NCBI RefSeq assembly: GCF_900095795.1
Contig: NZ_LT608328.1
Location: 1,667,001 to 1,731,000 of the forward strand
Reading direction: 5' to 3'
Length of the DNA stretch: 64,000 nt
Origin: Petrimonas mucosa
GTDB lineage: Bacteria > Bacteroidota > Bacteroidia > Bacteroidales > Dysgonomonadaceae
This document shows positions 14,292 through 53,391 of this stretch, one piece after another; position 1 is the stretch's first letter, and each line of letters begins with the position of its first letter. The translations under genes and the position numbers were made by a program. The notes below the pieces were generated by a model. That model made no database searches, was not told where the DNA came from, and worked only from the letters and a program-made list of their open reading frames with translations.

Positions 14292-14292
14292 T

Positions 14293-24687: not shown

Positions 24688-25314
24688 AAGTGCAACATCC
24701 ACGTGTTGTTTTTTGAAATGATTCTTCACAACAATCATGAAAAACACCGGGGGGGTTTGCCTAACGGCCGGGGGCGCGCAAGCCCCCGAAGAGAGTCGGA
24801 CAGCAACATAAAAGAAAAAGGAGACCGAAGTCTCCCTAAAATTAACTATTATGTTGCTTATGAAAAAATACAAACAGTTAACTTCAGAACATCGGAGGCG
24901 ATACTGACGGTGACGGAAAGGAAGACGAACCTCGTGATGATCGGGGAACTGCCCCGCGGAAGGGACTCGAAAGGGTTGGCCAAGGTGCTGTGCCGCATGT
25001 TGCTACCCTACAAGGACGTGATAAGGACGATCACCACGGACAACGGCTTGGAGTTCGCGGCGCACGAACGGATCACGGAGATGCTGGAAGCCCCGGTGTA
25101 CTTCACCGACCCCTATTCGGCATGGCAAAAAGGATCGATCGAAAACGCGAACAAGCTCATCCGGCAATACATCCCCAAGGGGGCGTCCTTCAAGAACTAT
25201 CCACCCGACAGATTGAAGCGGATACAGCACAGGCTGAATGAAAGACCGAGGAAAAAATTGGACTTTAACACACCCAAAGTTGAGTTTTACAAACAATTAA
25301 TGTAAATTGCACTT
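24688..25314 (+). mobile_element. IS30-family insertion sequence, internally deleted
   Basis: Short terminal inverted repeats AAGTGCAA (24688-24695) and TTGCACTT (25307-25314) bracket a transposase gene that keeps its first 13 codons and its catalytic half but has lost the middle. Two perfect hairpins in the left part (around 24768-24800 and 24818-24836) may insulate the element from outside transcription. The element is about 630 bp, far below a full IS30 element. Confidence 0.7.
24851..25305 (+). pseudogene. IS30-family transposase, central part deleted and out of frame
   Basis: From ATG 24860 the frame reads MKKYKQLTSEHRR, which is the start of an IS30-type helix-turn-helix domain. It hits a stop at once because the sequence jumps, near 24893-24900, to a different frame reading ILTVTERKTNLVMIGELPRG. 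That piece continues with TTDNGLEF, YFTDPYSAWQKGSIENANKL and LNERPRKKLDF, the second half of the DDE catalytic domain. The first catalytic Asp is in the missing part. No functional transposase can be made. Confidence 0.85.
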
Positions 25315-25362
25315 GCTGCTTGACTCTGCTTGGAAAATAATTTTCAAAAAATTTTGTTATTG

Positions 25363-25378
25363 TTTGCCTTTATTGTTA
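25363..25378 (+). repeat. Left copy of 16-bp direct repeat flanking the IS3-type element
   Basis: TTTGCCTTTATTGTTA occurs here and again at 26862-26877, flanking the IS3-type element. IS3-family elements normally duplicate only 3-4 bp of target, so the length is odd. Confidence 0.8.
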
Positions 25379-25434
25379 TATTAGCCCTCAAAAAAACCGA
25401 GCAGTAAAAAATAAAAGTTATTTTTACAACTGCT

Positions 25435-25717
25435 ATGGAAAAGAGGAAGAATTTTTACATCGAAAATCAAGGCTGAAATAGTTTTATCCTTGTTGCGTGG
25501 AGAAGATCCTGAGTTGCTTAGCCGTGAATACGGAGTTACTCTGGCTGATATCAACCTTTGGCGGGATCAATTTATCGAGAGTGGTACCGACGGGTTCAAG
25601 CGTAACCCCGACGATTCGAAGCTGAGTGCAGCCGAGCGTAAGATCGGGCAACTGCAGATGGAGCTTGAACTCACAAAAAAAAAGAACGAATTGGCAGCAA
25701 AACTAAGAAGGAAATAA
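25435..25717 (+). pseudogene. IS3-family OrfA (helix-turn-helix), frameshifted near its start
   Basis: From ATG 25435 the frame is MEKRKNFYIENQG then stop. Removing one T from the five-T run at 25452-25456 restores MEKRKNFTSKIKAEIVLSLL joined to RGEDPELLSREYGVTLADIN, a normal IS3 OrfA (HTH of the HTH_Tnp_1 type). As it stands only a TTG (25490) could open the frame, losing part of the first helix. A run of nine A followed by G at 25675-25684 lies near the 3' end and can shift ribosomes by -1 into orfB. Confidence 0.75.
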
Positions 25718-25722
25718 TCTCC

Positions 25723-26772
25723 ATGCTGATAGAGGAGCATTATCCATTAACCGGGAAGCCATACCCGAAGCGTTTGATATTCAAGGTTGTTGGCTACAGC
25801 AGCAGCACCTGGTATGAAAACCCTACCCCCAAAACAGGGAAACGGGGCAGAAAACCCAAGCATAGCGATGAAGAAGTTTTACAAGAGATTAAAACTGAAA
25901 TTATGAAAAGTACATTCAACGCTGAAGGTTATCTGAAAGTGAAGAAGCGCATGGGTAAAAGGAAGATAAACGCTCTGGTAGCCGGCAAGGCATGTGTGAA
26001 CCGCATCATGCGGGAACACAACCTGCTGAGCCCCTACAGAAGGCCAGGGAAGAGGAATAAGCGCGAACATGATGGCACTATAATCACGGATGCACCCAAT
26101 GTAATGTGGGCCACTGACGGGAAGAAGTTCTGGATTGAAGGGTCAGGCTGGCATTGGTTCTTTGGTGTGATCGATCACTTTAACGATGAGATTATATCGT
26201 GGCATATTGCAAAGAAAGGCAACCGTTTTGCTGCCATTAAGCCTGTTAGGGCCGCTGTACGAAAGACTTTCGGTTCGGTAGGTAAGGATGTATGTAAAGG
26301 AATGAAGTTGCAATTAAGAAGCGACCATGGCTCGCAGTATGACTCTGCTGATTTTATGAATGAAATGAAATTCCTGGGATTGGAGATGTCCAAAGCGTTT
26401 GTACGGTCACCAGAGTGCAACGGGATAATAGAGCGGTTTCACCGCACCCTGGAAGAACAGGTGCTGCAAACAGAAACATTTTCTTCCTTTGAGGAAGCTT
26501 ATAACAGTATTGATCAATTTATTAATGACTACAACACGGATTGGATACTTCATAGACTGGAATACTGTTCACCTGTAGAATACAGGGAAAAGTACGCTGA
26601 AAGCCAGCGAAAAGTAAAAGATGATATACCATCGGGCAATAAGGATCCTGAGGTTCAGCTTGTCCTCATTTCAAGTGGCTCAATGCCACGAAGAAATGAA
26701 ATAGCTCTTCAGGCAATGGTAAAAGGGGCAATTACTTACAGTAACACCCCTTCTATAAATCCTTCGGTATAA
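25723..26772 (+). CDS. IS3-family OrfB transposase (rve integrase core)
   Basis: 349 residues from ATG 25723. An HTH_21-like region (about 45-105; EEVLQEIKTEIMKSTFNAEG) precedes the integrase core with the catalytic triad in MWATDGKKFW (first Asp), LRSDHGSQYDS (second Asp) and CNGIIERFHRTLEEQ (Glu). All three acidic residues are present. The -1 frame after the A9G run at 25675-25684 is open without stops into this gene (ERIGSKTKKEIIS then MLIEEH), so an OrfAB fusion is the probable active transposase if OrfA is translated. It is flanked by the element's inverted repeats and appears intact. Confidence 0.88.
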   Translation: MLIEEHYPLTGKPYPKRLIFKVVGYSSSTWYENPTPKTGKRGRKPKHSDEEVLQEIKTEIMKSTFNAEGYLKVKKRMGKRKINALVAGKACVNRIMREHNLLSPYRRPGKRNKREHDGTIITDAPNVMWATDGKKFWIEGSGWHWFFGVIDHFNDEIISWHIAKKGNRFAAIKPVRAAVRKTFGSVGKDVCKGMKLQLRSDHGSQYDSADFMNEMKFLGLEMSKAFVRSPECNGIIERFHRTLEEQVLQTETFSSFEEAYNSIDQFINDYNTDWILHRLEYCSPVEYREKYAESQRKVKDDIPSGNKDPEVQLVLISSGSMPRRNEIALQAMVKGAITYSNTPSINPSV

Positions 26773-26909: not shown

Positions 26910-27464
26910 ATGCCTGCAATCAAGTTTTCAGATATTGCATCTACATACAACGAGTACTTGGACACTCTCTACGCATACGCTCTTCACCTGGGTTTTGACG
27001 ATCACACCGCGATGGATGCCATTCATGATCTATTCTACAAGTTGTGTACGCAGCACTCTTCCCTGAAAGAGATAGATAACCTTAAGTTTTACCTGTTCAG
27101 ATCGCTGAGAAACAGGTTGGTAGACCTTCACCGAACGAAACGTGAATGTTTGTCCCTTCACCTTATGGGAGAACATGAGGGTGTTGACCTGCCCTTTCAA
27201 TTGAATGTCACCGTCGAGGATGAGTTGATCGATAAGGAGGAGGCAGAGAAGATTCGGGAAAAGGTGGAAAATGTGCTGAGCCGGCTTACCCCTCGTCAGC
27301 GTGAAGTGATCTACCTGCGTTATCTTCAGGGGTGCAGTTATGAGGAGATCTCGGAGATCATGTGCATGTCGGTTGCAGGATCACGCAATCTCGTGAGCAG
27401 ATCGATCGCCAAACTTCGTGTAGCCTCTTTGGCCACTTTTACCATCTTTTTGATGGTTCACTAA
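26910..27464 (+). CDS. ECF sigma-70 factor controlling the SusC/SusD locus
   Basis: 184 residues. Region 2 (about 15-80) includes YALHLGFDDHTAMDAIHDLF and FYLFRSLRNRLVDLHR. Region 4 (about 115-175) has the helix-turn-helix LTPRQREVIYLRYLQGCSYE and EISEIMCMSVAGSRNLVSRS. Such factors, paired with a FecR-like anti-sigma protein and a receptor with an STN domain, switch on their own SusC/SusD locus when the receptor is loaded. The FecR gene follows 177 nt downstream. The IS3-type element ends 48 bp upstream, leaving little room for a native promoter. Confidence 0.92.
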   Translation: MPAIKFSDIASTYNEYLDTLYAYALHLGFDDHTAMDAIHDLFYKLCTQHSSLKEIDNLKFYLFRSLRNRLVDLHRTKRECLSLHLMGEHEGVDLPFQLNVTVEDELIDKEEAEKIREKVENVLSRLTPRQREVIYLRYLQGCSYEEISEIMCMSVAGSRNLVSRSIAKLRVASLATFTIFLMVH

Positions 27465-27641
27465 CCCTTTTCTCTTTTTTGCCCCTGCTCTCTCTTGACA
27501 AGAAGAGCGCCTTGGAAGTTGCATCAGTCAGGTTGATGCATATGTTAACATATATATTTTTTTAAATATATGGTGATGATTTAACTCATCTTTCGTCTCT
27601 ATTATATAGAGGAGGGTGAAAAAGTCACCTTTCCGACCATC

Positions 27642-28832
27642 ATGAAACAGAATCATTTCAAACAAGCCGGTTTTACAAAATTTCTCCAGGACGAAGCTTT
27701 TATTGAATGGAAGTTATTTCCATCAGAAGAGTTGGATACCTATTGGAGTAACTTTTTGGATCGATATCCTGAAGAGCGGGAAAATTTTCAAATGGCTGAA
27801 AAAAAATTCAGCAGCATCCGGATATCCTCACATAGAGTGTTACCAGAAAAGAGAAGTGAACCCATCAAACAGCTGGAGCAGTCTCTCAGCGCTTATGGTC
27901 GCAAGCGGAGACTTCGGCATTACTCCTATGCTGCTGCGATATCTGTTGCACTTTTGATCCTTTCCCTCTTTTATTATAATCGGGTTTCCGGAGAGATGTT
28001 GTCGGAGAGCGGCAACTACATTGTGGGGAATAAGCTGGAATCGGAAGATATTCTTTTTGTTGCAGGCAATCAGACCTCCTCGTTCCAGGGGAATGTTGAC
28101 CTCACGATTGAAAATGAGAAGACGGTACGGGTCAGGGGCGAAAACAACCAGGATGCCGAAATCAGCATTGAACAGGATGTGGTGAATAAACTGATTGTGC
28201 CATACGGTAAACGGTCCAAAATCATCCTTTCCGATGGATCCCGCGTCTGGTTGAATTCAGGTTCTGTTCTTGAATTTCCATGTACCTTCTCCGGTGAAAA
28301 AAGGGAAGTGATCCTCCATGGAGAGATGTATATTGAAGTGGAGCCCGACCCCGATAGATCTTTTGTTGTTCACACGGCCGATTTTGATGTGAAGGTCCAT
28401 GGGACGAGGTTTAACGTGACCGCATACAGGGAGACCTCCGCTTCGGTGGTTTTGGTAGAAGGGAAAGTTGGCCTGAATCTGAAGGACGGTGAGGAGTTGC
28501 TCCTGTCGCCCAGGGAACAGGGTCTCTACTCCGGATCAACTGGCACATTTACTACACGTGTGGTTGATGTTGATGCATACATCAGCTGGAAAGAGGGCTA
28601 CCTGATGTTTGAGGATACCCCTGTTACCGAGGCTCTAAGGAAAATTGAACGGTACTATAACCTCTCTTTCAATCTGGATGAAAATGTTTCGTTCTGTGGA
28701 CTGACCTGTACCGGCAAGATCATACTCTCTGCCAATCTCGATAACGTGATGACCGCTCTTTCAGTCATCTCAAACACCGAATACAAAAGAGACGACAACA
28801 TGATTTACATATTTAAAAAGTCAAACAATTAA
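27642..28832 (+). CDS. FecR-family anti-sigma factor
   Basis: 396 residues. A cytoplasmic N-terminal region (1-85) with WSNFLDRYPEERENFQMAEK should bind the ECF sigma factor. One membrane segment (about 92-110, YAAAISVALLILSLFYY) leads to the periplasmic FecR domain (about 180-280; VPYGKRSKIILSDGSRVWLN and SGSVLEFPCTFSGEKREVIL) and a C-terminal DUF4974-type domain (EGYLMFEDTPVTEALRKIER). It receives the signal from the STN domain of the SusC-like receptor encoded next. Spacing to the receptor gene is 145 nt. Confidence 0.92.
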   Translation: MKQNHFKQAGFTKFLQDEAFIEWKLFPSEELDTYWSNFLDRYPEERENFQMAEKKFSSIRISSHRVLPEKRSEPIKQLEQSLSAYGRKRRLRHYSYAAAISVALLILSLFYYNRVSGEMLSESGNYIVGNKLESEDILFVAGNQTSSFQGNVDLTIENEKTVRVRGENNQDAEISIEQDVVNKLIVPYGKRSKIILSDGSRVWLNSGSVLEFPCTFSGEKREVILHGEMYIEVEPDPDRSFVVHTADFDVKVHGTRFNVTAYRETSASVVLVEGKVGLNLKDGEELLLSPREQGLYSGSTGTFTTRVVDVDAYISWKEGYLMFEDTPVTEALRKIERYYNLSFNLDENVSFCGLTCTGKIILSANLDNVMTALSVISNTEYKRDDNMIYIFKKSNN

Positions 28833-28977
28833 ATCTTTATGCGTATGAAAAGATAGATCAAATCAGGTTACATATTACAAGTCGAGAAAAATGCCAGGCG
28901 ATGGTGCGAATGTCGTCCGGTTTCAATAACTCTAATCTAATTGACTAGTTTATTAATCATTAAATCATTACAAAGGT

Positions 28978-31900
28978 ATGGACAGATTTCCTATTGAAGG
29001 GAGAGAACCCCTCAATAATTTGAAGCAGACCCTAAAGATCATGCGAATAACCTTGTTATTACTGTTTTTCTGCGTGCTCTTCTCTTATGCTGATGGTAGC
29101 TATTCCCAGGAAAAAAAGTTTACAATCAGTGTCAAGTCCACCTCGATCAAAGAAATTTGTGAAGAGCTGGAGAACAACAGCAACTACCGTTTTCTTTTCG
29201 CAGGAAATGCGAAAAAGATCATCAAAAAGCGGGTCAATCTCACCGCCGATTCTGAAAATATAGAGGAGATTCTCAAAAGTATCTTGTCAGACACTGGACT
29301 CTCATACAGGATTCTGGAAGATCAAGTGGTTATTTACCAGGATGAGCTGGAAAACTCGTCGAAGGAGACCGGAAAGAGAATCCCTGATTTTGCCGTACAA
29401 CAACAAGGTACGGTGAGAGGAAAGGTTGTAGACCAAAAAGGAGAACCTCTCCCCGGTGTAACCATCACCATTGAGGGAACAACGAGAGGTGTAATCACGG
29501 ATATAGATGGAACATATTCAATTGCCGCGGGTTCATCAGATAAGCTCGTTTTTTCATTCGTGGGAATGGAGAGCCAGACGATCCAGGTGGGCAACCAGAC
29601 TACGATAAATGTCACCTTGACCGAGAAAGTGGACGAGCTGGAGGAGGTGACCATCGTTGCTTTTGGCCGGCAAAAAAAAGAGAGTGTGATCTCGTCCATC
29701 ACAACGGTGAATGCGAAGGAGCTGAAAGTGCCAAGCAGCAACCTTACTACCGCTTTTGCCGGACGCGTTGCCGGGCTCATTTCATATCAGACCAGTGGTG
29801 AACCGGGAAGTGATAACGCACAGTTTTTTATCCGCGGTATCACCACCTTTGGAGCTGATGCCAAAAAAGATCCCCTGATCCTGATTGATGGCGTGGAGCT
29901 GACATCCGAAGACCTGGCCAGGCTAAACACAGACGATATCGCCAGCTTCTCCATCATGAAAGATGCCACTGCTACCGCTCTCTACGGTGCACGGGGTGCT
30001 AACGGGGTGATCCTTGTAACCACGAAGGAGGGACGGGAAGGAAAAGTTCAGGTAAATGCCAGGATCGAGAACTCAATCTCTTCCCCAACACAGATGGTTA
30101 AGCTGGCCGATCCTATTACCTACATGAAAATGCACAACGAAGCGGTTCTGACACGCAACCCAAACGGTGTCAGGGAATATTCCGCCGAGAAAATTGAAAT
30201 GACTGAACGGGGTCTCTATCCCGATATTTTCCCGGCCACTGACTGGTACAAGGCGATGTTCAACGACCACACCATCAACCAGCGGGCCAATATCAGCGTA
30301 AGTGGTGGTGGAGCAATTGCACGTTACTATGTAGCCGCTAGCATTGCAAAAGATAATGGAAACTTAAAGGTGGATAGGAGGAGCAATTTCAACTCCAACA
30401 TTGACCTGACCAAATATACGGTACGCTCCAATGTGAACGTGAATCTTACCAAAACCACAGAGCTGATCATGCGCCTGAGCTCCACATTTGACGATTACAG
30501 GGGACCCATTGACGGGGGATCAGCCATGTATCGCAAGGTGATGCAGGCCAACCCGGTCTACTTCAAACCCTTCTACGAGCCGGACGAACAGTTCGAATAT
30601 GTTGATCATATCCTTTTTGGCAACTATGCAACAGCCGACTATATCAACCCGTACGCCCAAGCTTTGAGAGGTTATCGGGACTATAGCAAAAACATGACGA
30701 TGACACAGTTCGAACTGAAGCAGAATCTGGGAATGTTGACAGAGGGGCTGACTTTCCGCACCATGGTAAACATGAACCGTTTTTCGGAGTTTACGGTGAA
30801 CAGGGAGTATACACCATTCTATTATAGCATCGACATGTACGACCTGGCCAGCAACTCCTATACGCTCAAGAATCTGAATCCAGAGTCTGGAGATCCGTTC
30901 CTCCGTTACAACCCGGGAACCAGGAATATCAACACTGTATTCTATCTGGAATCGGCCTTGGAGTATAATAAGACGATTGCTGAAAAACATTCGATCAACA
31001 GCTTGCTGGTCTACATCATGAGGCAGGAGAAAAACGGTATAGCCGACAATCTGCTGCTCTCATTGCCGAACCGAAATCTCGGGCTGTCTGGCCGTCTGGC
31101 ATATAACTATGATAGCCGCTATTTCGGTGAGTTCAATTTTGGGTATAACGGGTCGGAACGTTTTTCCAAGGAGAACAGGTGGGGTTTCTTCCCGTCGGTG
31201 GGGCTAGCATGGATGGTCTCCAACGAACCGTTCTTCGATGGGTTGAGCAGTATCTTCCCGCAATTCAAACTGAAAGGGACCTACGGACTTGTGGGTAATG
31301 ACGCCATCGGGAGCAACAACGACCGTTTCTATTATCTGTCGCAAGTGGACATGAATGCGTCGAGAAACGTCAACTGGGGGGCAATGATGAACTACAATCC
31401 GCCCGGAATCAGCGTCTCCCGTTATGCAAACGACATGATAGGATGGGAAACTGCCTACAAGACCAATGTGGGTGCGGAACTTTCAGTCAAGGGAGGGCTA
31501 TCGGCCAATATCGATCTTTTTCATGAAAGACGCGAAAACATTCTGCTGACCCGTGTCATCCCGCAAACGATGGGTATCATACCCGCCATCAAGGCCAACC
31601 TGGGTGTCGCCAGTGGCCAGGGTGTGGATATGGAGTTGAATTACGAGAAGTTCATTACAAACGACTTCTATATAACAGGGCGGGGCACATTCACCTATGC
31701 CACCAGCAAAGTGATGGAGTGGGAAGAGCCCGACTATGCCAGCACGCCCTGGAGATCAAGAGTGGGGTATAGTATCAACCAGAACTGGGGCTATATTGCA
31801 GAACGCCTATTTGTGGATGAACGGGAGGTAGCCAACTCGCCAACCCAGTTTGGAAACGTGATGGGAGGCGATATCAAGTATCGCGACGTGAATGAGGATG

Positions 31901-32451
31901 GGGTGATCTCCGCATTGGACCAGGTTCCCATTGGCTATCCTACGGTTCCGGAGATCAACTACGGCTTTGGAACTACAATTGGCTACAAGGGATTTGATTT
32001 TTCATTCTTCTTCCAGGGATCTGGCCGTCAATCGTTCTGGCTGAACATCGGAAATATCCAGCCGTTTGTGGATGGCGATGCAAATGATGGACTGATTGGT
32101 CAGAATGCCGTGCTTCAGGCCATAGCCGACAATTACTGGTCTGAAAGTAATCGGAACCCCTATGCCTTCTGGCCGCGACTCTCCACTTACTCCATCACCA
32201 ACAACAACCAGACAAGCACCTGGTGGATGCAAGACGCCACTTTCATCCGTCTTAAATCGGCTGAATTTGGTTACTCCCTGCCCAAACGTTTCACTCAGAA
32301 AATATATATGACCAACTGCAGGTTTTATCTGAGTGGAACCAATCTTCTGACATGGAGCCGTTTCAAATTGTGGGATCCGGAAATGGCCGGAAATGGATTG
32401 GGATACCCGTTACAGAGGGTTATCAACGTAGGTTTGAACCTGAATTTTTAA
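28978..32451 (+). CDS. SusC/RagA-family TonB-linked outer-membrane protein with STN signalling domain
   Basis: 1157 residues. A leader with hydrophobic core (MRITLLLLFFCVLFSYADG) lies behind a 21-residue extension, common in SusC proteins; ATG 29041 is the alternative start. Domains: STN (about 50-125; FTISVKSTSIKEICEELENN), carboxypeptidase-D-like regulatory domain (about 145-230; VRGKVVDQKGEPLPGVTITI), plug (about 235-360; VAGLISYQTSGEPGSDNAQF, FIRGITTF, LILIDGVEL, YGARGANGVILVTTKEG) and a barrel ending VINVGLNLNF. It forms the outer-membrane import channel capped by the SusD lipoprotein, and its STN domain signals to FecR. The stop overlaps an in-frame ATG for the next gene. Confidence 0.95.
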   Translation: MDRFPIEGREPLNNLKQTLKIMRITLLLLFFCVLFSYADGSYSQEKKFTISVKSTSIKEICEELENNSNYRFLFAGNAKKIIKKRVNLTADSENIEEILKSILSDTGLSYRILEDQVVIYQDELENSSKETGKRIPDFAVQQQGTVRGKVVDQKGEPLPGVTITIEGTTRGVITDIDGTYSIAAGSSDKLVFSFVGMESQTIQVGNQTTINVTLTEKVDELEEVTIVAFGRQKKESVISSITTVNAKELKVPSSNLTTAFAGRVAGLISYQTSGEPGSDNAQFFIRGITTFGADAKKDPLILIDGVELTSEDLARLNTDDIASFSIMKDATATALYGARGANGVILVTTKEGREGKVQVNARIENSISSPTQMVKLADPITYMKMHNEAVLTRNPNGVREYSAEKIEMTERGLYPDIFPATDWYKAMFNDHTINQRANISVSGGGAIARYYVAASIAKDNGNLKVDRRSNFNSNIDLTKYTVRSNVNVNLTKTTELIMRLSSTFDDYRGPIDGGSAMYRKVMQANPVYFKPFYEPDEQFEYVDHILFGNYATADYINPYAQALRGYRDYSKNMTMTQFELKQNLGMLTEGLTFRTMVNMNRFSEFTVNREYTPFYYSIDMYDLASNSYTLKNLNPESGDPFLRYNPGTRNINTVFYLESALEYNKTIAEKHSINSLLVYIMRQEKNGIADNLLLSLPNRNLGLSGRLAYNYDSRYFGEFNFGYNGSERFSKENRWGFFPSVGLAWMVSNEPFFDGLSSIFPQFKLKGTYGLVGNDAIGSNNDRFYYLSQVDMNASRNVNWGAMMNYNPPGISVSRYANDMIGWETAYKTNVGAELSVKGGLSANIDLFHERRENILLTRVIPQTMGIIPAIKANLGVASGQGVDMELNYEKFITNDFYITGRGTFTYATSKVMEWEEPDYASTPWRSRVGYSINQNWGYIAERLFVDEREVANSPTQFGNVMGGDIKYRDVNEDGVISALDQVPIGYPTVPEINYGFGTTIGYKGFDFSFFFQGSGRQSFWLNIGNIQPFVDGDANDGLIGQNAVLQAIADNYWSESNRNPYAFWPRLSTYSITNNNQTSTWWMQDATFIRLKSAEFGYSLPKRFTQKIYMTNCRFYLSGTNLLTWSRFKLWDPEMAGNGLGYPLQRVINVGLNLNF

Positions 32452-32477
32452 TGAATCACCCAAATAAAATTTCGGAT

Positions 32478-34442
32478 ATGAAATCGATTATAAAATATAG
32501 TATTTGTTTAATATTTGCCTCACTGGTGATGTCCTGTAACTACCTGGACATCATTCCGGATAATATTCCTACACTGGATGATGCCTTTGCAAACAGATAT
32601 ACGGCAGAGCAGTATCTTGCCACATGTTACTGGGGGCTTCCCAAAGCTGCGGGATGGGATCAGAATCCAGCTTTTCTGGGTTCGATGGAGATCATCATGA
32701 ACCCCAATTTCCGTACCAGCGGAGGAATGAGACATGCGTTGGGAGAAGATAATCCTACATCACCTGTTATCAATTACTGGGGCAGTACAGCTACAGCCAT
32801 CCGTTCACTCTATGCAGGTATCCGTGAATGCAATACTTTCCTCGACAATATCGGGAGGGTCCAGGACCTGAAAAGTGACGAACGGGACCGGATGATAGCC
32901 GAAGTGAAAACCATCAAGGCGTGGATGCACTTTTACCTGATTACCTATTACGGCCCCATATGTCCGTTAAGGGAGAGCACACCCATCAATACCTCCACAA
33001 CAGGCATCCGGGTTTACAGGGAAAAAATCGATGACTGTTTTGCCTACGTTCTGGAGCTGCTCGAAGAGGTGATTGCATCTGACGCGTTGCCCGACCGTAT
33101 CACTAACCGGACCACCGAACTGGGCAGATTTACACAGGCGGTGCCTTATGCGCTGAAAGCAAGGGTTTTGACCTATTGGGCGAGCGACCTTTTCAATGGG
33201 AATACCGACTATAGCACCTTCAGGGACCATAAGGGCGAACCCTTTTTCAACCAGGTGAAGGATCCATCCCGATGGAGTTTGGCTGCAGAAGCCTGCAAGA
33301 AGGCCATTGAGGTATGCCTGGCCAACGATATCCGCCTCTACCAGGTGGAAGACTATATGCAGACAAAACCGATGTCTGACACCACACTGCTTATCAATAC
33401 GCTCAGAAGCGCCGTAAGTGATCAACAGAACACCAACGTGGAACTGATTTTTGGAAATACTGGATATCCCTGTGGTTCAAATGTCCAAAGGCACTGTCTG
33501 CCACGTTTTGAAGCAGGTTCGGCTGCCAATGCAACCTCCAGGCTGGCTGTGCCCCTTCATATTGTAGATCTTTTCTATTCATCCAACGGACTCCCGCTGG
33601 AGGATGACCAAGGCTGGCTGGAGAACGACAAATACAATACCCGTTTTGAAACTCTCCGTGTAGGTGACGATATGCACCGTTACGTCATTCAGCCTGGAGA
33701 GGTCACTTCCCAGGTCAACTTCGACCGTGAGTTGAGGTTTTATGCCGCACTTGGTTTCGACAGGGGCAAATGGTACGGCAACCACTACAATAATGAACCG
33801 AACAATGATGCCGAAGCCATGTTTCCGATGGCCCGCTTTTCAGAGTTCTCGAACCGGGTGGCCAATAACGAATATAACCCCACTGGATATTGGCCCAAAA
33901 AGCTGGTAAACCTGAATACCCGCTGGCGTGATGCCAATGAACTGACCTATCTGAGCTATCCCTATCCCGATATGCGTTTTGCAGATCTGTTGCTGCTGGC
34001 TGCAGAAACCATCAACGAGTCAACTCCCGGAGATGATAATGTTGCGGTCAATCCCGAGGTCTACAGTTATGTGGATATGGTCAGGGAACGTGCCGGGCTT
34101 GAAGGCATAGTGGAGACCTACCAGAAGTATGCCATTGCCGACAAGAAGAATAAACCGATGACCAAAGGCGGAATGAGGGAGATTATCCGTCGCGAGAGAA
34201 AAGTGGAGTTGTCTCTTGAGGGGCAGGACTATTGGGACCAGAAACGGTGGAAGACGGCGCATATCGAGTTGAACCGGAACATCCAGGGATGGAATGTAAC
34301 CGCGGAAGACCCAAGCCCCAGTGCCTATTATGTGCCGACAACCATTTACACGAAACGGTTTACACTGCGTGATTACTTTGCTCCGATTCCAGAGAGTGAT
34401 TTGATCAATAATCCCCAACTGGTACAAAACCCAGGCTGGTAA
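32478..34442 (+). CDS. SusD/RagB-family substrate-binding lipoprotein
   Basis: 654 residues from ATG 32478, chosen for the lipoprotein leader MKSIIKYSICLIFASLVMSC (lipobox VMSC, Cys20); ATG 32451 overlapping the SusC stop is possible. The mature protein has the SusD TPR-like helices and the C-terminal signature RRERKVELSLEGQDYWDQKR then APIPESDLINNPQLVQNPGW. It should cap the SusC barrel and bind the incoming substrate at the cell surface. At 654 residues it is larger than the classical starch protein, typical of family members for complex ligands. Confidence 0.95.
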   Translation: MKSIIKYSICLIFASLVMSCNYLDIIPDNIPTLDDAFANRYTAEQYLATCYWGLPKAAGWDQNPAFLGSMEIIMNPNFRTSGGMRHALGEDNPTSPVINYWGSTATAIRSLYAGIRECNTFLDNIGRVQDLKSDERDRMIAEVKTIKAWMHFYLITYYGPICPLRESTPINTSTTGIRVYREKIDDCFAYVLELLEEVIASDALPDRITNRTTELGRFTQAVPYALKARVLTYWASDLFNGNTDYSTFRDHKGEPFFNQVKDPSRWSLAAEACKKAIEVCLANDIRLYQVEDYMQTKPMSDTTLLINTLRSAVSDQQNTNVELIFGNTGYPCGSNVQRHCLPRFEAGSAANATSRLAVPLHIVDLFYSSNGLPLEDDQGWLENDKYNTRFETLRVGDDMHRYVIQPGEVTSQVNFDRELRFYAALGFDRGKWYGNHYNNEPNNDAEAMFPMARFSEFSNRVANNEYNPTGYWPKKLVNLNTRWRDANELTYLSYPYPDMRFADLLLLAAETINESTPGDDNVAVNPEVYSYVDMVRERAGLEGIVETYQKYAIADKKNKPMTKGGMREIIRRERKVELSLEGQDYWDQKRWKTAHIELNRNIQGWNVTAEDPSPSAYYVPTTIYTKRFTLRDYFAPIPESDLINNPQLVQNPGW

Positions 34443-34502
34443 GTTGGATTTTACTGTTTAACTATAAAGAATGAACAACATATGATTCACGATCGATTCC
34501 AT

Positions 34503-35702
34503 ATGAAAGCAATTGACTTATTATTGGCTGTATTGGTTGCGCTCTTTTTTTACTCTTGCGAGGAGAAGCAGCTCGAACCAATCAATGAATCAAAAGGGAA
34601 GCCGGCTCCGGTAAGCGATGTGGTGGTAATGTATGCCCCGGGCGGAGCGATCATCTCTTTCAAATTGCCTGCAGACGACGATGTGTTGGCTGTGAAGGCA
34701 GTTTATACGCTTAGCAATGGCCAGAAACGGGAGGCAATCACCTCGTTTTACGGTGACAATATTCTCATAGAGGGGTATAATGACACCAATGAACATGAAG
34801 CATTGCTTTACACTGTAAGCCGGTCACAGGTATTGTCTGACCCGGTGTTGGTTAAGTTTACCCCACAGGAGTCACCGCTCAGCAAGGCCATCAAGTCGGT
34901 CGAAATTGCCAGCGATTTTGGTGGGGCCTACTACTCCTGGAAGAATCTCTACAATGTGCTTCTCACGGCAGAGATGCTGGTGGAGGACGATAACGGTATC
35001 ATGCAGACAGCGAGGATTGCCACTTCCAATCTTGAGACCGCCTTTTTCAGGATTCGCGGGTATGAACCTGTCCCCCGGAGGTTTGGACTGGTGCTCAAAG
35101 ACAACTGGGACAATGTTTCCGATACGATCTATCCGGATGGTGGGACCATTACTCCTTTGCATGAAACAACACTCGACAAGAAGTTTTGGTCGATCTACAA
35201 AATTGATGGTGGCTACCTGCCAGGCGATTTTACCTTTACAAACTGGGAGGGGCGCGATGAATACATGTTTGATGACGATCTGAACACCTTCGGCCACAGC
35301 TACTCCGGATCACTTCCGGTAAGCATCACGATCGATCTGGGCAAGCCGGCCATATTAAGCCGTGTGACCTTCTTTCAACGGTTACAGTCGGGCGTTTATT
35401 ACGGTTGGGGAAATCCCCGGCGGATCATCGTGTATGGTAGCAAGGTGGCTCCAACCACGGGTGGCTGGGATGAGTGGACGCAGTTGATTGACTACACCAT
35501 CGTCAAACCCTCGGGTACCAATGATCAATACACGGTAAATACCGATGAGGACCGGCAGGCGGCTTTAAACGGCCATGAAGCCTCATTCCCCATCTCCTCG
35601 GAGGCGTACCGTTATATCCGGTTCAGGTTTATGACTTCGTGGGAAAACAGGCCGTATGTTCACCCGTCTGAGATAACCATTCATGGTGTATACGAAGAGT
35701 AA
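34503..35702 (+). CDS. Surface lipoprotein, DUF4959/DUF5000-type (SusE-position binding protein)
   Basis: 399 residues from ATG 34503, with the lipoprotein leader MKAIDLLLAVLVALFFYSCE (lipobox FYSC). An N-terminal FN3-like domain (DUF4959 type; PAPVSDVVVMYAPGGAIISF) and a middle FN3-like domain (DUF5126 type, about 110-210) lead to a C-terminal discoidin/F5-8C-like sandwich (DUF5000 type, about 215-395) with MFDDDLNTFGHSYSGSLPVS, ITIDLGKPAILSRVTFFQR and YRYIRFRFM. These proteins follow SusC/SusD pairs and are thought to bind the same ligand at the surface. The gap to SusD is about 60 nt, in the same operon. Confidence 0.85.
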   Translation: MKAIDLLLAVLVALFFYSCEEKQLEPINESKGKPAPVSDVVVMYAPGGAIISFKLPADDDVLAVKAVYTLSNGQKREAITSFYGDNILIEGYNDTNEHEALLYTVSRSQVLSDPVLVKFTPQESPLSKAIKSVEIASDFGGAYYSWKNLYNVLLTAEMLVEDDNGIMQTARIATSNLETAFFRIRGYEPVPRRFGLVLKDNWDNVSDTIYPDGGTITPLHETTLDKKFWSIYKIDGGYLPGDFTFTNWEGRDEYMFDDDLNTFGHSYSGSLPVSITIDLGKPAILSRVTFFQRLQSGVYYGWGNPRRIIVYGSKVAPTTGGWDEWTQLIDYTIVKPSGTNDQYTVNTDEDRQAALNGHEASFPISSEAYRYIRFRFMTSWENRPYVHPSEITIHGVYEE

Positions 35703-35744
35703 CGCATTTAATGAGAAGTAATAGCTACGAGAAAAAAAAGGAAT

Positions 35745-37004
35745 ATGAAAAGATATATCTTATTATTAATAGCCATCTGTGCCATATTTTCATCATGCGA
35801 TGACATGATGGAGGTGCACAAGCCGTTTATCAAGGGCGGAGAGAAGGTGTATGCATTGAAGTTGGACCAGTCAAGCTTTTATGCCGGGCACAACCAGGTC
35901 TATTTCAAGTATTACATGGCCAATACGACAAATATCAAAAGTGTTGATCTCTATTGGGATGATGATTCGCTGATCATACCGATGCCGTCGCATGGATCGG
36001 GCATGGTATCCATACCTGCTCCGGAGGAGAGATCCTACTCGTTTAAATTCCGGACCACCGACATCTTCGGGAACCATTCACTCTGGAATACAGGTTTTGC
36101 CAACTCTTACGGTGAATATTTCCAGAAGTCTCTCCTGAACCGGTCGGTAAAAAGTTTCCAATTGATCAACAACAACAGCAACGGCGAAATTACCTGGTTT
36201 CCTCCAGCGGCCAACCTGATTCGTACCGAAGTGCGATATACCGATATCAACGGGCAGGAGCAATTGGTGGATGTGCCCATAGGTGAAAACGAGACGCTGT
36301 GTCCCGGTTTGGGAGTGAACAGGTTTGATGTGCGTTCTTTCTTCCTGCCGGAGGCCAATGCAATGGACACCTTCTATACCGATTGGCAGCATGTTACGCC
36401 AGTGTATCAACTTCCAACCACCGGGTGGAGCATCAAATATTGCAACTCCTGGCACGGACAACCCTCACTGACGGGGACTGCCAATATGCCACACTTCATT
36501 TTTGATGGAGATTTCAACACATTCTGGCATTCGAACTACGCCAATTATACATTAGGTACACATCCGCTCGATCCGGAAATCACTCGGGATCCCCCACCAT
36601 TTACCACTGTCATTGACATGGGTGAGCCTGTTGAAATTGCGAAGGTTGATATTTACCGCAGGTTGAGCAACAACAACACGCAAACTGTGATTGTTTATGC
36701 CCCGGCGATAGCTGACGATCAACTTTCCGACGAGGATTTCAAGTGGCTGGGCAATGTTCCCGTATCATACACCAACCATAGCATATTCAAAAACTACTTC
36801 TATCCCGGAGTGGAAAACGAGAACTGGAAAGAGCTAGGTAGGGTGGAATTCCCCAGTACCAGTTTTTCAACCCCTGAAGAAAACCTCAGGGAGGTGGATG
36901 CTACGTCACATAATATCAAGAGCAGATATGTGAAACTGATATTGCCAAATACCCGAAGCAATGGTAACGTATCGCTTGCCGAAGTGGCTATTCATGGACG
37001 ATAA
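35745..37004 (+). CDS. Surface lipoprotein, DUF4998 with C-terminal discoidin-like domain
   Basis: 419 residues. Leader MKRYILLLIAICAIFSSCDD (lipobox FSSC). The N-terminal half matches the DUF4998 style (DDMMEVHKPFIKGGEKVYAL; two FN3-like beta units). The C-terminal half (about 235-418) is discoidin-like: PHFIFDGDFNTFWHSNY, VIDMGEPVEIAKVDIYRR and SRYVKLILPN. It probably acts as a second surface ligand-binding protein of the SusC/SusD system, 42 nt behind the DUF5000-type gene and 11 nt ahead of the phosphoesterase lipoprotein. Confidence 0.85.
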   Translation: MKRYILLLIAICAIFSSCDDMMEVHKPFIKGGEKVYALKLDQSSFYAGHNQVYFKYYMANTTNIKSVDLYWDDDSLIIPMPSHGSGMVSIPAPEERSYSFKFRTTDIFGNHSLWNTGFANSYGEYFQKSLLNRSVKSFQLINNNSNGEITWFPPAANLIRTEVRYTDINGQEQLVDVPIGENETLCPGLGVNRFDVRSFFLPEANAMDTFYTDWQHVTPVYQLPTTGWSIKYCNSWHGQPSLTGTANMPHFIFDGDFNTFWHSNYANYTLGTHPLDPEITRDPPPFTTVIDMGEPVEIAKVDIYRRLSNNNTQTVIVYAPAIADDQLSDEDFKWLGNVPVSYTNHSIFKNYFYPGVENENWKELGRVEFPSTSFSTPEENLREVDATSHNIKSRYVKLILPNTRSNGNVSLAEVAIHGR

Positions 37005-37015
37005 TATTTAAAGGT

Positions 37016-37864
37016 ATGAGAAAAATGAAAATAAACAGGATATTTTTGTTAAGCATTATTGTACTGTTGGCTGCATGTGGAAAAGAGTCAACTGAAGAAC
37101 CTCCAACAGTAATCATCCCACCGACAACTGATGCGGCCATTCTGAAAGTGATGACCTACAACATTGCAGGTGCCGCTGCAAGCACAGGCGTGAGAAGCCT
37201 GGAGGGGCTGGCCGAAGTGATCAAGAGGGTCGATCCCGACATTGTAGCCATCCAGGAGGTGGATGCATTTACCACCCGCAACGGAAAAGATGTCCATTTA
37301 GCCCGCGACCTGGCGGCACTTTGTGGCATGGATCACTGGTTCTTTGCAAAAGCGATGGATTTTCATGATGGAGAGTATGGTGATGCCATCATATCGAAAC
37401 TTCCGTTCAAGGAGACCATGGCCTATAACCTGACTGGCGATTGGGAAGGACAACGGATAGAAACCCGTTCGGTCGCCCGTGTTACTGTTGAGGTTGGGGG
37501 AAGGGATATCTGTTTTATCAGCACCCACTTCGACCATACCAGCAATGAAAAATGGCGTATCTTGCAGGCGAAAGAGCTGGTGGAGATCGTCAAGGGGATT
37601 GAGATGCCCGTCATTGTGGGAGGAGATCTGAACTGCACCCCCTCGAGCGAGCCGATGAAAATCTTATATGAAGTGCTTGCCTCACCATGTAAAACCGGAG
37701 ACTGTCTGGGGACCTTCGTGGGTAGCAAGAATGTCATTGACTATCTGGTATACAGAAGCGACAACGTGCTGACTCTCTCCTCATACGGGATCTACTCCTG
37801 GGCCGACAAGGAGTCGGACCATTTTCCGGTTGGGGCGGTCTTTGAAGTTGAAAAGGTTAAATGA
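37016..37864 (+). CDS. Endonuclease/exonuclease/phosphatase-fold lipoprotein
   Basis: 282 residues. Leader MRKMKINRIFLLSIIVLLAA then Cys (lipobox LAAC), so it is an exported lipoprotein. The EEP/DNase I-fold residues are all present: Asn in MTYNIAG, Glu in IQEVD, the His in STHFDHTSN, Asp-Leu-Asn in VGGDLNCTP, Asp in NVIDYLV and the terminal SDHFPV. Members cut phosphodiesters or phosphomonoesters (DNA, RNA, phospholipids, inositol phosphates) using a metal ion. The gene sits 11 nt behind the DUF4998 gene in the SusC/SusD operon, so the substrate is likely what the receptor imports. The exact bond cut cannot be read from sequence. Confidence 0.9.
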   Translation: MRKMKINRIFLLSIIVLLAACGKESTEEPPTVIIPPTTDAAILKVMTYNIAGAAASTGVRSLEGLAEVIKRVDPDIVAIQEVDAFTTRNGKDVHLARDLAALCGMDHWFFAKAMDFHDGEYGDAIISKLPFKETMAYNLTGDWEGQRIETRSVARVTVEVGGRDICFISTHFDHTSNEKWRILQAKELVEIVKGIEMPVIVGGDLNCTPSSEPMKILYEVLASPCKTGDCLGTFVGSKNVIDYLVYRSDNVLTLSSYGIYSWADKESDHFPVGAVFEVEKVK

Positions 37865-37906
37865 TGCCTGGTTGCCTGACCATGCGGCATTTTCGTGAAT
37901 AACAGT

Positions 37907-37934
37907 ACGAGGGTGAACCACCGTTTACCCTCGT
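37907..37934 (+). terminator. Hairpin between the phosphoesterase genes
   Basis: ACGAGGGT (37907-37914) pairs with ACCCTCGT (37927-37934) across 12 nt, 42 nt after the stop. The following sequence is GCTGATATTTTC, a weak T-run, so it may be a partial terminator or an RNA-stability hairpin rather than a full stop. Confidence 0.5.
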
Positions 37935-38035
37935 GCTGATATTTTCACACGATCCGGTTTAACATTGCAGCGGCAGCGTTGAGAGTTGAAAATCATCAAC
38001 AGGGAAATGTAATTCACTAAAAAATATTTGAACCC

Positions 38036-39202
38036 ATGAGAAAAATTTTTTTCCTTCTTTTTTTGAGTTTACCTCTTCTCCTTTTTTGCCAGGAAATTGA
38101 GATCTCACACGGTCCATATCTGCAAAAGATGGGCGAGAATGAGGTGACCATCATCTGGACCACGAATAAGGATGCCCTCTCCTGGGTGGAGTTGGCTCCA
38201 AAAGGGGATGACAGCTTTTATGCATATGAGCGCCCCAGATATTATGACACGGCTTTCGGGAGCAAGAGGGTGGGGAGGCTGCACCGAGTGACTATCAACG
38301 GATTGGACCCGGGCACAGAATATCGCTACCGGATCTTTTCAAAGGAGGTCCTCAGTTACCAGGGGCATCGGGTGCTTTATGGAAATGTTGCAGCTTCAGA
38401 TGTTTATCGGCAGGCTCCCTTTGCTTTCAGAACATTGGACAGAAAGAAAACCCAGTTGAGATTCAAGGTGGTAAATGATATCCACGGTAAAAACGAGAAT
38501 CTGCTCAAAATGCTTGAAGGTACCGGCAGGAGCAATACCGACCTGGTCATCTTCAACGGCGACATGGTGTCGATGTTGAATGATCCTGAAGAGATATTTA
38601 CCCGGTTCATGGATACTTCCGTCAATATTTTTGCCAAAGAGGTGCCCATCTTTTTGGCACGGGGCAACCATGAAACGAGGGGAAAAGGGGGTGTTGACCT
38701 CTACAATTACTTCCCAACCACGAGTGGCCAGTTCTACTACTGCTTTCAGGATGGTCCGGTCTTTTTCCTGGTTCTCGACGGGGGGGAAGACAAGCCTGAC
38801 TCCGATATCGAATATTCAGAGTTGGCCCACTTCGATGACTATCGCACCCGGCAGGCGGAGTGGCTGAAAAAGGTGGTGGCCTCGGAGGAGTTCAGGCAGG
38901 CTCCATTTCGTGTTGTCATCATGCATATTCCCCCCACGGCATCTACATGGCACGGGACCAGGGATGTGATGGAAAAATTGATACCGGTTTTGAATGGTTC
39001 CGACATTGATGTGATGTTGTGCGGCCACACCCATAATTACCGGTTTATCGGCAAGGGAGAGGAGCCGGGCATCAATTTCCCGATACTGATCAACGATGAT
39101 GAGACCTGGCTGGATGTTGAGGTTGATTCTGAAATAAGGATCACTCAAAAGGAGATGTCGGGAAATCCGCTGAAACAGCATCATTTTAAACGTCTCCGTT
39201 GA
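38036..39202 (+). CDS. Purple-acid-phosphatase-like metallophosphoesterase, exported
   Basis: 388 residues. Leader MRKIFFLLFLSLPLLLFCQE, possibly lipidated at Cys18. An N-terminal FN3-type domain (about 22-130; SHGPYLQKMGENEVTIIWTT) typical of purple acid phosphatases precedes the calcineurin-like core with all metal motifs: NDIHG, NGDM, GNHE, the His in VIMHIPPT and GHTHNY. It should remove phosphate from small or polymeric phosphoesters in the periplasm or at the surface. It follows the EEP lipoprotein by 171 nt and precedes the nucleoside-type carrier by 59 nt, suggesting ordered dephosphorylation before import. Confidence 0.9.
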   Translation: MRKIFFLLFLSLPLLLFCQEIEISHGPYLQKMGENEVTIIWTTNKDALSWVELAPKGDDSFYAYERPRYYDTAFGSKRVGRLHRVTINGLDPGTEYRYRIFSKEVLSYQGHRVLYGNVAASDVYRQAPFAFRTLDRKKTQLRFKVVNDIHGKNENLLKMLEGTGRSNTDLVIFNGDMVSMLNDPEEIFTRFMDTSVNIFAKEVPIFLARGNHETRGKGGVDLYNYFPTTSGQFYYCFQDGPVFFLVLDGGEDKPDSDIEYSELAHFDDYRTRQAEWLKKVVASEEFRQAPFRVVIMHIPPTASTWHGTRDVMEKLIPVLNGSDIDVMLCGHTHNYRFIGKGEEPGINFPILINDDETWLDVEVDSEIRITQKEMSGNPLKQHHFKRLR

Positions 39203-39261
39203 GGCAGGGAGATTTTTCTTTTTGTCAATATATTTTAATCAGGCATTAAATCGATAAATAT

Positions 39262-40479
39262 ATGCAGAAAAAAGCAATTAAGACTAGGCTGTCGGCCATG
39301 ATGTTCTTTCAGTTCTTTATCCAGGGTTCATGGTATGTAACCATGGGAACTTACCTGGGAAGGACACTCGACTTTACCGGTGTACAAATAGGGCTGGCCT
39401 ATAGCACTGCAGCCATAGCAGCCATCATATCGCCTGTGATAGTGGGGATGATTGCCGACCGTTTCTTTTCGGCGAACAGGGTGTTGGCATTTCTTAACGT
39501 CACGGGAGCCTTTCTCCTTTTCTGGTTGACCAGAATCGGGTCATTCTCCCTCTTTTTCCCCGTGCTGTTGCTTTACAGCATCTGTTTCATGCCCACGATG
39601 TCGTTGACCAATTCCATATCGTTTGCCAACCTGGAGAGCCCGGCGAAGGAGTTCTCAAAGATCAGGCTGTTCGGGTCGCTTGGCTGGATTGGGGCGGGAC
39701 TTCTTATCAGTGCACTGAAGCTGGAATCTTTCTCCACCCCTTTCCTGATCGGGGCAGGAGTCTCTTTACTTTCCGGGTTCTATGCGTTAAGCCTGCCATA
39801 CAATGCTCCGGTGAAGAGTGCCGGGAAAGCAGGAGTTGGGCAATTGCTCGGCTTCGATGCCTTCAGGTTGACCCGGGAGAGGTCGTTCCTTATCCTGCTG
39901 CTCTTTTCGATGCTGATCTGCATACCGCTGGCGTTTTACGACTCTTTCACCAATCTTTTCATCACCGACGTGGGGATCTTGAATGCGGCTGCGGCAATGA
40001 GCCTCGGGCAGGTGGCGGAGGTGATTTTCCTCTTCACGTTTCCGTTCTTTTTCCTCAAGTTACGTTACAAGGGGAGTATTGTGGCTGCCATCGTGGCCTG
40101 GGTGATGATGTACGGGCTGTTCACCCTGAGTGCAGCCACCGGCAACAACGGATTCATTTATGCCGTGCTGCCGTTGCATGGATTCTGCTTCACTTTCTTC
40201 TTTGTTGCCGGACAGCTGTTTGTGGACGAGAAGGCTCCATCTTCGTTGCGTAATTCGGCGCAAGGGTTGCTCGCTTTCGCCACTTACGGGGTTGGAAAAT
40301 ATATGGGCACACTGGTTGCCGGTAACGTGGTGCAATTCCATACAGCGGAGGGTGGATACAACTGGATGTATGTATGGAGCGTTCCATTCGTAATGACGGT
40401 TCTCTTCCTGCTCGGATTCATCTTCCTGTTCAAGGAGGATATAACCAAAAGGGAGAGCCCGGAGGGTACTATGAACTAA
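39262..40479 (+). CDS. Nucleoside:H+ symporter-like MFS transporter (NupG/XapB type)
   Basis: 405 residues with 12 predicted membrane helices and no signal peptide. The start (MMFFQFFIQGSWYVTMGTYL), the loop GMIADRFFSANRVLAFLNVT and the motif FGSLGWIGAGLLIS are those of the nucleoside:H+ symporter branch of the MFS. These carriers import nucleosides with protons across the inner membrane. The position directly after two exported phosphoesterases in a SusC/SusD locus fits uptake of the dephosphorylated product. Other Bacteroidetes members may carry sugars, so the substrate is inferred. Confidence 0.82.
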   Translation: MQKKAIKTRLSAMMFFQFFIQGSWYVTMGTYLGRTLDFTGVQIGLAYSTAAIAAIISPVIVGMIADRFFSANRVLAFLNVTGAFLLFWLTRIGSFSLFFPVLLLYSICFMPTMSLTNSISFANLESPAKEFSKIRLFGSLGWIGAGLLISALKLESFSTPFLIGAGVSLLSGFYALSLPYNAPVKSAGKAGVGQLLGFDAFRLTRERSFLILLLFSMLICIPLAFYDSFTNLFITDVGILNAAAAMSLGQVAEVIFLFTFPFFFLKLRYKGSIVAAIVAWVMMYGLFTLSAATGNNGFIYAVLPLHGFCFTFFFVAGQLFVDEKAPSSLRNSAQGLLAFATYGVGKYMGTLVAGNVVQFHTAEGGYNWMYVWSVPFVMTVLFLLGFIFLFKEDITKRESPEGTMN

Positions 40480-40616: not shown

Positions 40617-41642
<1,026 letters not shown>

Positions 41643-52312: not shown

Positions 52313-52430
52313 TATTTCGAGAACAGATATTGGATGTCAGGTTCCTGCACTGTTTAGAAGCAGTGTCAGGACCTGATGTCTGGTGTTTTCAGTTTATCAG
52401 GAGAAGTTTAAATTTTAAAAAAGAATAAGT

Positions 52431-53303: not shown

Positions 53304-53316
53304 GCATACATAACCT

Positions 53317-53359
53317 GAAAAAGAGTGTTTCTGAAATATTCGGAAATACTCTTTTTTTT
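53317..53359 (+). terminator. Intrinsic terminator after the DUF1080 gene
   Basis: AAAAGAGTGTTTC pairs with GAAATACTCTTTT (one mismatch), followed by TTTT. It separates the DUF1080 gene from the TIM-barrel gene, so the latter may depend on readthrough or its own promoter. Confidence 0.8.
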
Positions 53360-53391
53360 AAACAGTATTATCATTTATATTGAACATTAAG

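Follow-up and report, generated by a model that had tools for sequence, protein, structure and literature searches.

SusC/SusD systems with discoidin-type binding proteins usually handle glycans. Here we describe a nine-gene operon with such proteins and two phosphoesterases, found in a window (the whole stretch analysed) of 64,000 nucleotides from Petrimonas mucosa (Bacteroidota; Dysgonomonadaceae; contig NZ_LT608328.1, positions 1,667,001 to 1,731,000, forward strand). Among the closest described proteins, BT2857 and BT3158 of Bacteroides thetaiotaomicron contain a DUF5000 domain resembling CBM32 and are reported to act on p-nitrophenyl-beta-galactoside (PMC8211771). The SusD proteins BT3013 (PDB 7bll) and BT4246 (PDB 5cjz) both come from mucin-linked loci, and BT4246 binds galactose (PMC11992087). 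For the nucleoside transporter NupG, the contact sites F143, N228, Y318, F322, E264, G319 and D323 have been described, and YegT is likewise without the NupG uridine residues (PMC11979927).

We judge the chances to be slightly better than even that the operon is a SusC/SusD polysaccharide utilization locus (PUL) for a phosphodiester-bearing, galactose-containing glycoconjugate from which phosphate is removed stepwise. A galactosylated teichoic-acid-like polymer, a phosphorylated O-glycan and a glycosylphosphatidylinositol (GPI) or phospholipid head group would all fit as substrate. An initial annotation, made from the sequence without database searches, had proposed that a phosphoester is taken up by a SusC/SusD system, a phosphodiesterase and a phosphatase likely acting in series, which adjacency and gene fusions support; phosphorylated glycans, which it listed as an alternative, are the better reading of the substrate in view of the binding proteins and of close relatives of the locus. 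The genes of the operon and its two boundaries are as follows.

26910–27464, + strand: extracytoplasmic function (ECF) sigma factor (Pfam Sigma70_r2 and Sigma70 r4_2; TIGR02937 above cut-off)
27642–28832, + strand: FecR-type anti-sigma factor (Pfam FecR and FecR_C)
28978–32451, + strand: SusC/RagA TonB-dependent transporter with STN signalling domain (STN, CarbopepD_reg_2, Plug; TIGR04056, 996.7 bits)
32478–34442, + strand: SusD-like lipoprotein (Pfam SusD_RagB; VMSC lipobox)
34482–35702, + strand: SusE-like protein (Pfam DUF4959-DUF5126-DUF5000)
35745–37004, + strand: lipoprotein with DUF4998 and F5/8 type C (discoidin) domain (Pfam; FSSC lipobox)
37016–37864, + strand: endonuclease/exonuclease/phosphatase (EEP)-fold phosphodiesterase/phosphatase lipoprotein (Exo_endo_phos, PF03372; LAAC lipobox; catalytic residues intact)
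38036–39202, + strand: DxH metallophosphoesterase with a purple acid phosphatase (PAP)-type N-terminal domain (Pfam Pur_ac_phosph_N and Metallophos)
39262–40479, + strand: major facilitator superfamily (MFS) carrier of a divergent, PUL-associated nucleoside:H+ symporter (NHS) subfamily, with GxxxT for GxxxD (Nuc_H_symport, PF03825)
25723–26772, + strand: integrase-core transposase gene, the upstream boundary, outside the operon (rve_3, rve_2, rve, HTH_21)
40617–41621, − strand: GAPDH gene, the downstream boundary (Pfam and NCBIfam)

The operon spans 26910–40479, all on one strand, with gaps of 177, 145, 26, 39, 42, 11, 171 and 59 bp in operon order, so that the mostly short gaps described initially hold (11–177 bp). 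The ECF sigma factor, FecR, STN-domain SusC and SusD are likewise confirmed by Pfam and NCBIfam, with the SusD start moved out of SusC, from 32352 to 32478; this ATG lies 26 bp past the SusC stop and gives 654 aa, equal to the orthologue in genome G088. The SusC and SusD genes are adjacent and, judged by domains, the ECF sigma and FecR genes accompany the STN-domain SusC. The SusE-like protein is probably a lipoprotein as well; an FFYSC motif was spotted by eye, and the lipobox pattern gave no match in this protein. At the upstream boundary, 137 bp separate the end of the integrase-core gene from the sigma factor gene, and transposon-type genes flank the region on both sides, with integrase-core genes (one weak match, one full) at 24703–26772 and a DDE transposase and a DUF3871 gene at 60388–63068.

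The EEP-fold lipoprotein was initially described as having all catalytic residues, and this is confirmed by the LAAC lipobox and by the residues N49, E81, H171, D204, N206, D242, D268 and H269, which are invariant in 19 sequences. The EEP fold itself was borne out by comparing the AlphaFold2 model (mean pLDDT 86.3) with solved structures, although this Foldseek comparison of a predicted model cannot separate phosphatases from nucleases, and because it was indecisive, a sequence profile and the gene context were used instead. The profile, built from the 19 sequences, matches solved EEP proteins and phosphatases, sphingomyelinases, nocturnin and the BT3783 mannosyl-6-phosphatase at E-values of 1e-12 to 1e-8, with BT3783 at 2.2e-10 and the sphingomyelinases at 8.6e-10 to 1.1e-8. 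The DNA enzymes come lower, namely a chloroplast apurinic/apyrimidinic (AP) endonuclease (1.6e-7), ExoIII (2e-6) and human APE1 (4e-4 to 8e-4), and DNase I is not among the matches at E ≤ 0.001. The protein also scores below the cut-off of the ExoIII-type xth equivalog of NCBIfam (26 bits vs 99.05). Thus, as regards the grouping of the enzyme, the profile puts sphingomyelinase and sugar-phosphatase structures above DNA nucleases, while the single sequence is not clear on this point.

We searched 101 genomes of the window's family for EEP orthologues at E ≤ 1e-30 and found them in ten, the own genome included; six of these, window included, have at least 47% identity, whereas none of the nine other genomes of the window's genus has an orthologue at this threshold. 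A second family was covered by a 251-genome sample centred on G489, a genome taken from a 395-genome phylum sample (two matches at E ≤ 1e-48, own genome included), and gave orthologues in 11 of 251 genomes at E ≤ 1e-45. In an order sample, 2 of 393 genomes, own genome included, had a match at E ≤ 1e-38. The set of orthologous loci is therefore 17, six from the window's family (window included) and 11 from the second; L053 (the same as G102, a Bacteroidales metagenome-assembled genome, MAG), L054 (G094, a Proteiniphilum MAG) and L055 (G1105, Sphingobacterium humi), whose wider taxonomy is inferred, are each counted once, and L167, L196 and L201 add nothing. SusC/SusD lies upstream of the EEP gene in 16 of the 17, and the remaining locus begins at a contig end. 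The initial annotation had suggested looking for the same gene order in other genomes, and G088 indeed has the same nine genes in identical order. Its carrier gene (product 77% identical) stands at the start of the one contig and the other eight at the opposite end, so that contiguity assumes a circular chromosome. Because the nine-gene order recurs in G088 and SusC/SusD precedes EEP in nearly all of these loci, the gene order is not due to chance. The patchy spread of the EEP orthologue fits horizontal transfer without being proof of it, and the eight congeners with a match (nine searched) share only the GAPDH gene with the window, homology stopping on both sides, which is uninformative on insertion.

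The EEP gene is followed by that of the metallophosphoesterase. The initial annotation saw in its product a purple-acid-phosphatase-like enzyme with all metal motifs, and DxH, GD, GNHE and GHxH are indeed there, but Ser stands in place of the Tyr of GDxxY, which we take to be the signature of purple acid phosphatases. Over 39 distinct homologous genes, window included, which replace an earlier set of 42 rows with cut or repeated copies, DxH is found in 39 and GDxxY in none. A true purple acid phosphatase is therefore rejected, the PAP N-terminal and metallophosphoesterase domains being present with this Tyr missing. From its hydrophobic N-terminus and the lack of a lipobox match, the enzyme is probably periplasmic.

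To describe the association between the two phosphoesterases, metallophosphoesterase homologues were collected at E ≤ 1e-10 (32 in 17 genomes) and counted as paired where an EEP gene lay within 3 kb or was fused. Fourteen of the 32 are paired, with 11 of 14 paired in the window's family. As the genomes had been picked for their EEP locus, a fairer figure is obtained by leaving out the EEP-orthologue loci used for that choice, and six of nine homologues in the window's family are then paired; by rough arithmetic (11 EEP genes in 3.7 Mb), any one metallophosphoesterase gene would have an EEP gene within 3 kb by chance in about 2–3% of cases. All three homologues in the own genome adjoin or are fused to an EEP domain, in the operon, in an EEP-metallophosphoesterase fusion beside GH123 (glycoside hydrolase family 123), and in a homologue beside a GH29-EEP fusion and GH31. 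We collected 11 distinct fused genes, of which L073 was checked with Pfam and has both domains. In six of the 17 orthologous loci, the metallophosphoesterase directly follows EEP or is fused alongside it, and in three it lies elsewhere in the fetched stretch. Our literature searches turned up no description of an EEP-metallophosphoesterase unit and, judged from these searches, it looks undescribed.

Further arrangements of these domains were seen alongside. Two lie on the minus strand of the own genome (G000:C1), a fusion of 625 aa directly after the GH123 gene (L147:8246-11916) and a 742-aa fusion of a GH29 alpha-L-fucosidase with EEP next to a metallophosphoesterase and GH31 (L148:9100-11328). 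Next to similar fusions, Pfam identified AXE1 with a type I phosphodiesterase in L156, GH43 in L157 and a sulfatase in L163. At L101:8643-9851 and L102:10866-12074, a fusion of a BT_3987-N binding domain with EEP replaces the separate surface-binding protein (Pfam on L101 only). Another type of phosphoesterase PUL, in Bacteroides and relatives, combines GH130, an MFS carrier, SusC/SusD, DUF3823, two EEPs and a TIG/NHL protein (L040, L058, L060, L061 and L074; Pfam on L058 only).

The binding proteins and close relatives of the locus bear on the glycan part of the proposal. The SusE-like protein matches 7m1b at E 4.8e-42, with residues 32–396 of 406 aligned, and 7m1a at E 7.6e-17. These entries are named galactose-binding(-like) protein, and we infer from PMC8211771 that they are BT3158 and BT2857. 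For SusD the nearest solved chains are 7bll (E 3.8e-67), 5ck1 and 5cjz. Genes flanking the loci were identified by BLAST against a small set of references and by chosen Pfam scans, so that the count of glycoside hydrolases (GHs) is not exhaustive. The absence of such enzymes noted initially holds for the nine genes by Pfam, but GH36 follows EEP in two close relatives and GH42 in one. L053 has the order DUF5000-DUF4998-EEP-metallophosphoesterase-GH36, then one open reading frame and an APH-family gene, and L054 has SusC-SusD-DUF5000-DUF4998-EEP-EEP2-GH36-GH42, the EEP2 and GH36 genes sharing one base. A galactose-type glycan as target is hinted at by the family of the SusE-like protein together with GH36 and GH42, and by the nearness of SusD to SusDs from mucin-linked loci.

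The carrier was initially described as NupG/XapB-like. It belongs to the Pfam NHS family (343 bits against PF03825; cut-off 25.9), but it falls below the cut-off of the NCBIfam nucleoside permease TIGR00889 (337.2 vs 446.1 bits) and differs from NupG at six of 11 checked sites, including the proton-site Asp (D323T). R136, T140, Q225 and Q261 were among the sites compared, as we take them to be NupG contacts too. Three changes are common to the carrier and YegT (F143W, Q225A and Y318H), whereas T140S, N228D and D323T are found in neither NupG nor YegT, the latter keeping the proton Asp and having Tyr at site 228 and in place of F322; R136, Q261, E264, G319 and F322 of NupG are kept in the carrier. 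Thr at the proton site, Trp at 143 and Asp at 228 are found in all 24 full-length operon-type carriers, 22 of which have the identical 11-letter pattern, and NupG itself and the other NupG-type carriers, 25 in all, show the same residues as NupG at the 11 sites; GxxxT, Trp 143 and Asp 228 thus split the two groups without exception. In the tree, the operon carrier falls outside the NupG-type clade. Because YegT, a putative nucleoside carrier, shares some of the changes, these residues exclude a NupG-like site only, not every nucleoside.

The operon-type subfamily occurs in 23 of 101 genomes of the family and in 2 of 345 of a class sample (own genome included in both), and 27 contexts were available; fragments L139, L186 and L187, below the 330-residue limit, are counted here and were left out of the residue count. 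A Gfo/Idh/MocA dehydrogenase gene lies next door in nine and SusC/SusD in 12; five more have other genes for sugars, binding proteins or oxidoreductases nearby, and the window itself completes the count. Eight of the nine dehydrogenase neighbours are 86–96% identical to the ninth, that of G088, and this gene comes after each of the seven carriers nearest to that of the window in the tree (clade support 0.87). A 92% identical copy of it lies elsewhere in the window genome near GH97 and a type I phosphodiesterase. Neighbours confirmed by Pfam at single loci are GH2, GH43, an arabinofuranosidase C-terminal domain (GH51-type), GH97, GH127 and a sulfatase. A search with a crude nucleoside-hydrolase motif gave no match within 8 kb of the carrier relatives. 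From these gene contexts, including the Gfo/Idh/MocA gene, the comparison points to a sugar or sugar-alcohol as cargo. The initial assignment of a nucleoside carrier thus largely gives way to a grouping with sugar transporters, as members of the subfamily have sugar and PUL genes for neighbours and lack several nucleoside-site residues of NupG, although YegT too is without some of these. The Pfam label "nucleoside H+ symporter" does not by itself make a protein encoded in a PUL a nucleoside carrier. For riboswitches or other RNAs near transporters of the window, only a tRNA reached the gathering score. Elsewhere in the window, a PnuC-type transporter gene lies 1 bp downstream of a TonB-dependent receptor gene (13725–16545, − strand), possibly a pair for vitamin uptake, and a run of Gfo/Idh/MocA, 3-keto-disaccharide hydrolase and TIM-barrel genes (50843–54285, + strand) resembles a keto-glycoside pathway.

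Together these parts suggest how a phosphodiester-bearing glycoconjugate could be used. The SusE-like protein, the DUF4998 protein and SusD would capture the substrate at the surface, where the lipid-anchored EEP enzyme, whose fold and residues are in place, may open the phosphodiester. The STN-domain SusC would import the fragment and, as its architecture suggests, induce the operon through FecR and the sigma factor. The metallophosphoesterase, probably in the periplasm and coupled to EEP by adjacency and fusion, would then strip the exposed phosphate, and the NHS-subfamily carrier could move the dephosphorylated sugar or sugar-alcohol to the cytosol, a cargo suggested by its residues and contexts. 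Once there, the product may be oxidised by a Gfo/Idh/MocA dehydrogenase like those encoded just after the carrier's seven nearest relatives. A bolder version, which we regard as quite doubtful, is that the operon is dedicated to harvesting galactosylated polyol-phosphate (teichoic-acid-like) or another phosphodiester-linked glycan from neighbouring microbes, a phosphodiesterase/phosphatase relay breaking down the polymer in place of GHs and the NHS carrier having lost residues of its proton and nucleoside sites to become a sugar carrier.

Several observations weigh against our proposal. Pfam finds no glycoside hydrolase or lyase among the nine genes, a CAZyme (carbohydrate-active enzyme) being usual in a PUL though not required, and GH36 occurs in only two of the 17 orthologous loci, with GH109/GH20 in one more; by a sub-cut-off NCBIfam match, this GH36 might act on beta-L-arabinopyranosides. 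The galactosidase activity of BT2857 was low, and its second product was left unassigned (PMC8211771). The galactose pocket of BT4246 is not kept in the window SusD (Y371 to T, R467 to N and D468 to E in a low-confidence alignment), nor is it kept in BT3013 (PMC11992087). The single EEP sequence finds 4ruw, nocturnin and 3g6s, then AP endonucleases at E of about 0.01, without listing BT3783 at E ≤ 10, and Foldseek ranks BT3783 eighth (19% identity) amid CNOT6L, nocturnin and TDP2 of like score. The metallophosphoesterase is absent from the fetched stretch in eight of the 17 loci, and in the second family EEP is near only 3 of 18 homologues. Finally, the nearest solved relative of the carrier is YegT (E 1.3e-74), a putative nucleoside transporter sharing three of its six changes.

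Among alternatives, the operon could scavenge phospholipid or glycolipid head groups, or GPI/inositol phosphates, with a sphingomyelinase- or phospholipase-C-like EEP enzyme, a metallophosphoesterase that frees the head group and a carrier importing inositol, glycerol or a galactosyl polyol. The sphingomyelinase matches of the EEP profile speak for this, as does the PGAP2IP nuclease-like domain, the second Pfam match of the protein, and there is a weak match to inositol dehydrogenase in the Gfo/Idh/MocA protein encoded beside the carrier in relatives. That match is far under its cut-off (47 of 355 bits), however, and is not the best, which is to levoglucosan dehydrogenase (99.4 of 650), and discoidin-type proteins with SusC/SusD usually mean glycans, so that we consider head groups unlikely.

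Less likely still is the nucleic-acid or nucleotide scavenging that the initial annotation favoured, with EEP as a surface nuclease, the metallophosphoesterase as nucleotidase and the carrier as nucleoside symporter. An EEP and a metallophosphoesterase in series would suit DNA or RNA breakdown, CNOT6L, nocturnin and TDP2 are among the fold matches of EEP, AP endonucleases are weakly matched by the single sequence, YegT and NupG are the nearest PDB entries to the PF03825 carrier, and no GH was recognised in 14 of the 17 loci by our non-exhaustive typing. Against this, the proton Asp among the changed NupG sites is one that YegT keeps, and the own genome has a second NHS carrier (G000:C1:758902) that matches NupG at 11 of 11 sites. 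The carrier's relatives stand among sugar genes, free of nearby matches to the crude nucleoside-hydrolase motif, the best DNA enzyme in the EEP profile ranks below BT3783 and the sphingomyelinases with DNase I unlisted, and the galactose-type binding module and the GH36/GH42 genes of close relatives point elsewhere.

That the operon is an ordinary glycan PUL, in which EEP and the metallophosphoesterase trim occasional phosphate decorations while backbone GHs are encoded elsewhere in the genome, gains from BT3783 being a solved mannosyl-6-phosphatase of the same fold, from a CAZyme-free PUL on record (the BT3013 PUL; PMC11992087) and from the own-genome phosphoesterase units that adjoin GH123, GH29 and GH31, but it seems improbable to us, as the phosphoesterases are the only two hydrolases recognised in the window and G088 operons, which makes phosphate removal look central.

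If a phosphodiester-bearing glycoconjugate is the substrate, the phosphodiester would be the main bond attacked by a PUL, and CAZyme-based PUL prediction would miss such substrates. The EEP-metallophosphoesterase unit, adjacent or fused, would then be a usable genomic marker for PULs directed at phosphodiester glycans.

Compared with known systems, the operon shares single parts with several. The mannosyl-6-phosphatase BT3783 of B. thetaiotaomicron (PDB 4c1r), which we presume to belong to a mannan PUL, has in common with the window enzyme the EEP fold and an origin in Bacteroidota, and is by its PDB title a sugar-phosphate enzyme; the structural match has 19% identity, and orthology is not implied. 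The nucleoside:H+ symporters NupG and YegT share the Pfam NHS family with the carrier, which is set apart by its non-NupG residues and sugar-locus contexts. BT2857 and BT3158 have the same three-domain architecture as the window's SusE-like protein, whose gene directly follows that of SusD; their PULs were left without an assigned substrate (PMC8211771). The BT4240-50 PUL for mucin O-glycoprotein has a binding protein with a CBM32 module, and BT4246 is among the nearest PDB SusDs; this PUL and the BT3013 PUL carry an M60-like peptidase, and BT4240-50 also carries GH2/GH109 (PMC11992087). Neither "phosphatase" nor "endonuclease" occurs in the main text of that paper. The APH-family (phosphotransferase) gene of L053 belongs to the family named for BT4240, and the BT3013 PUL is without CAZymes, as is the window operon (PMC11992087).

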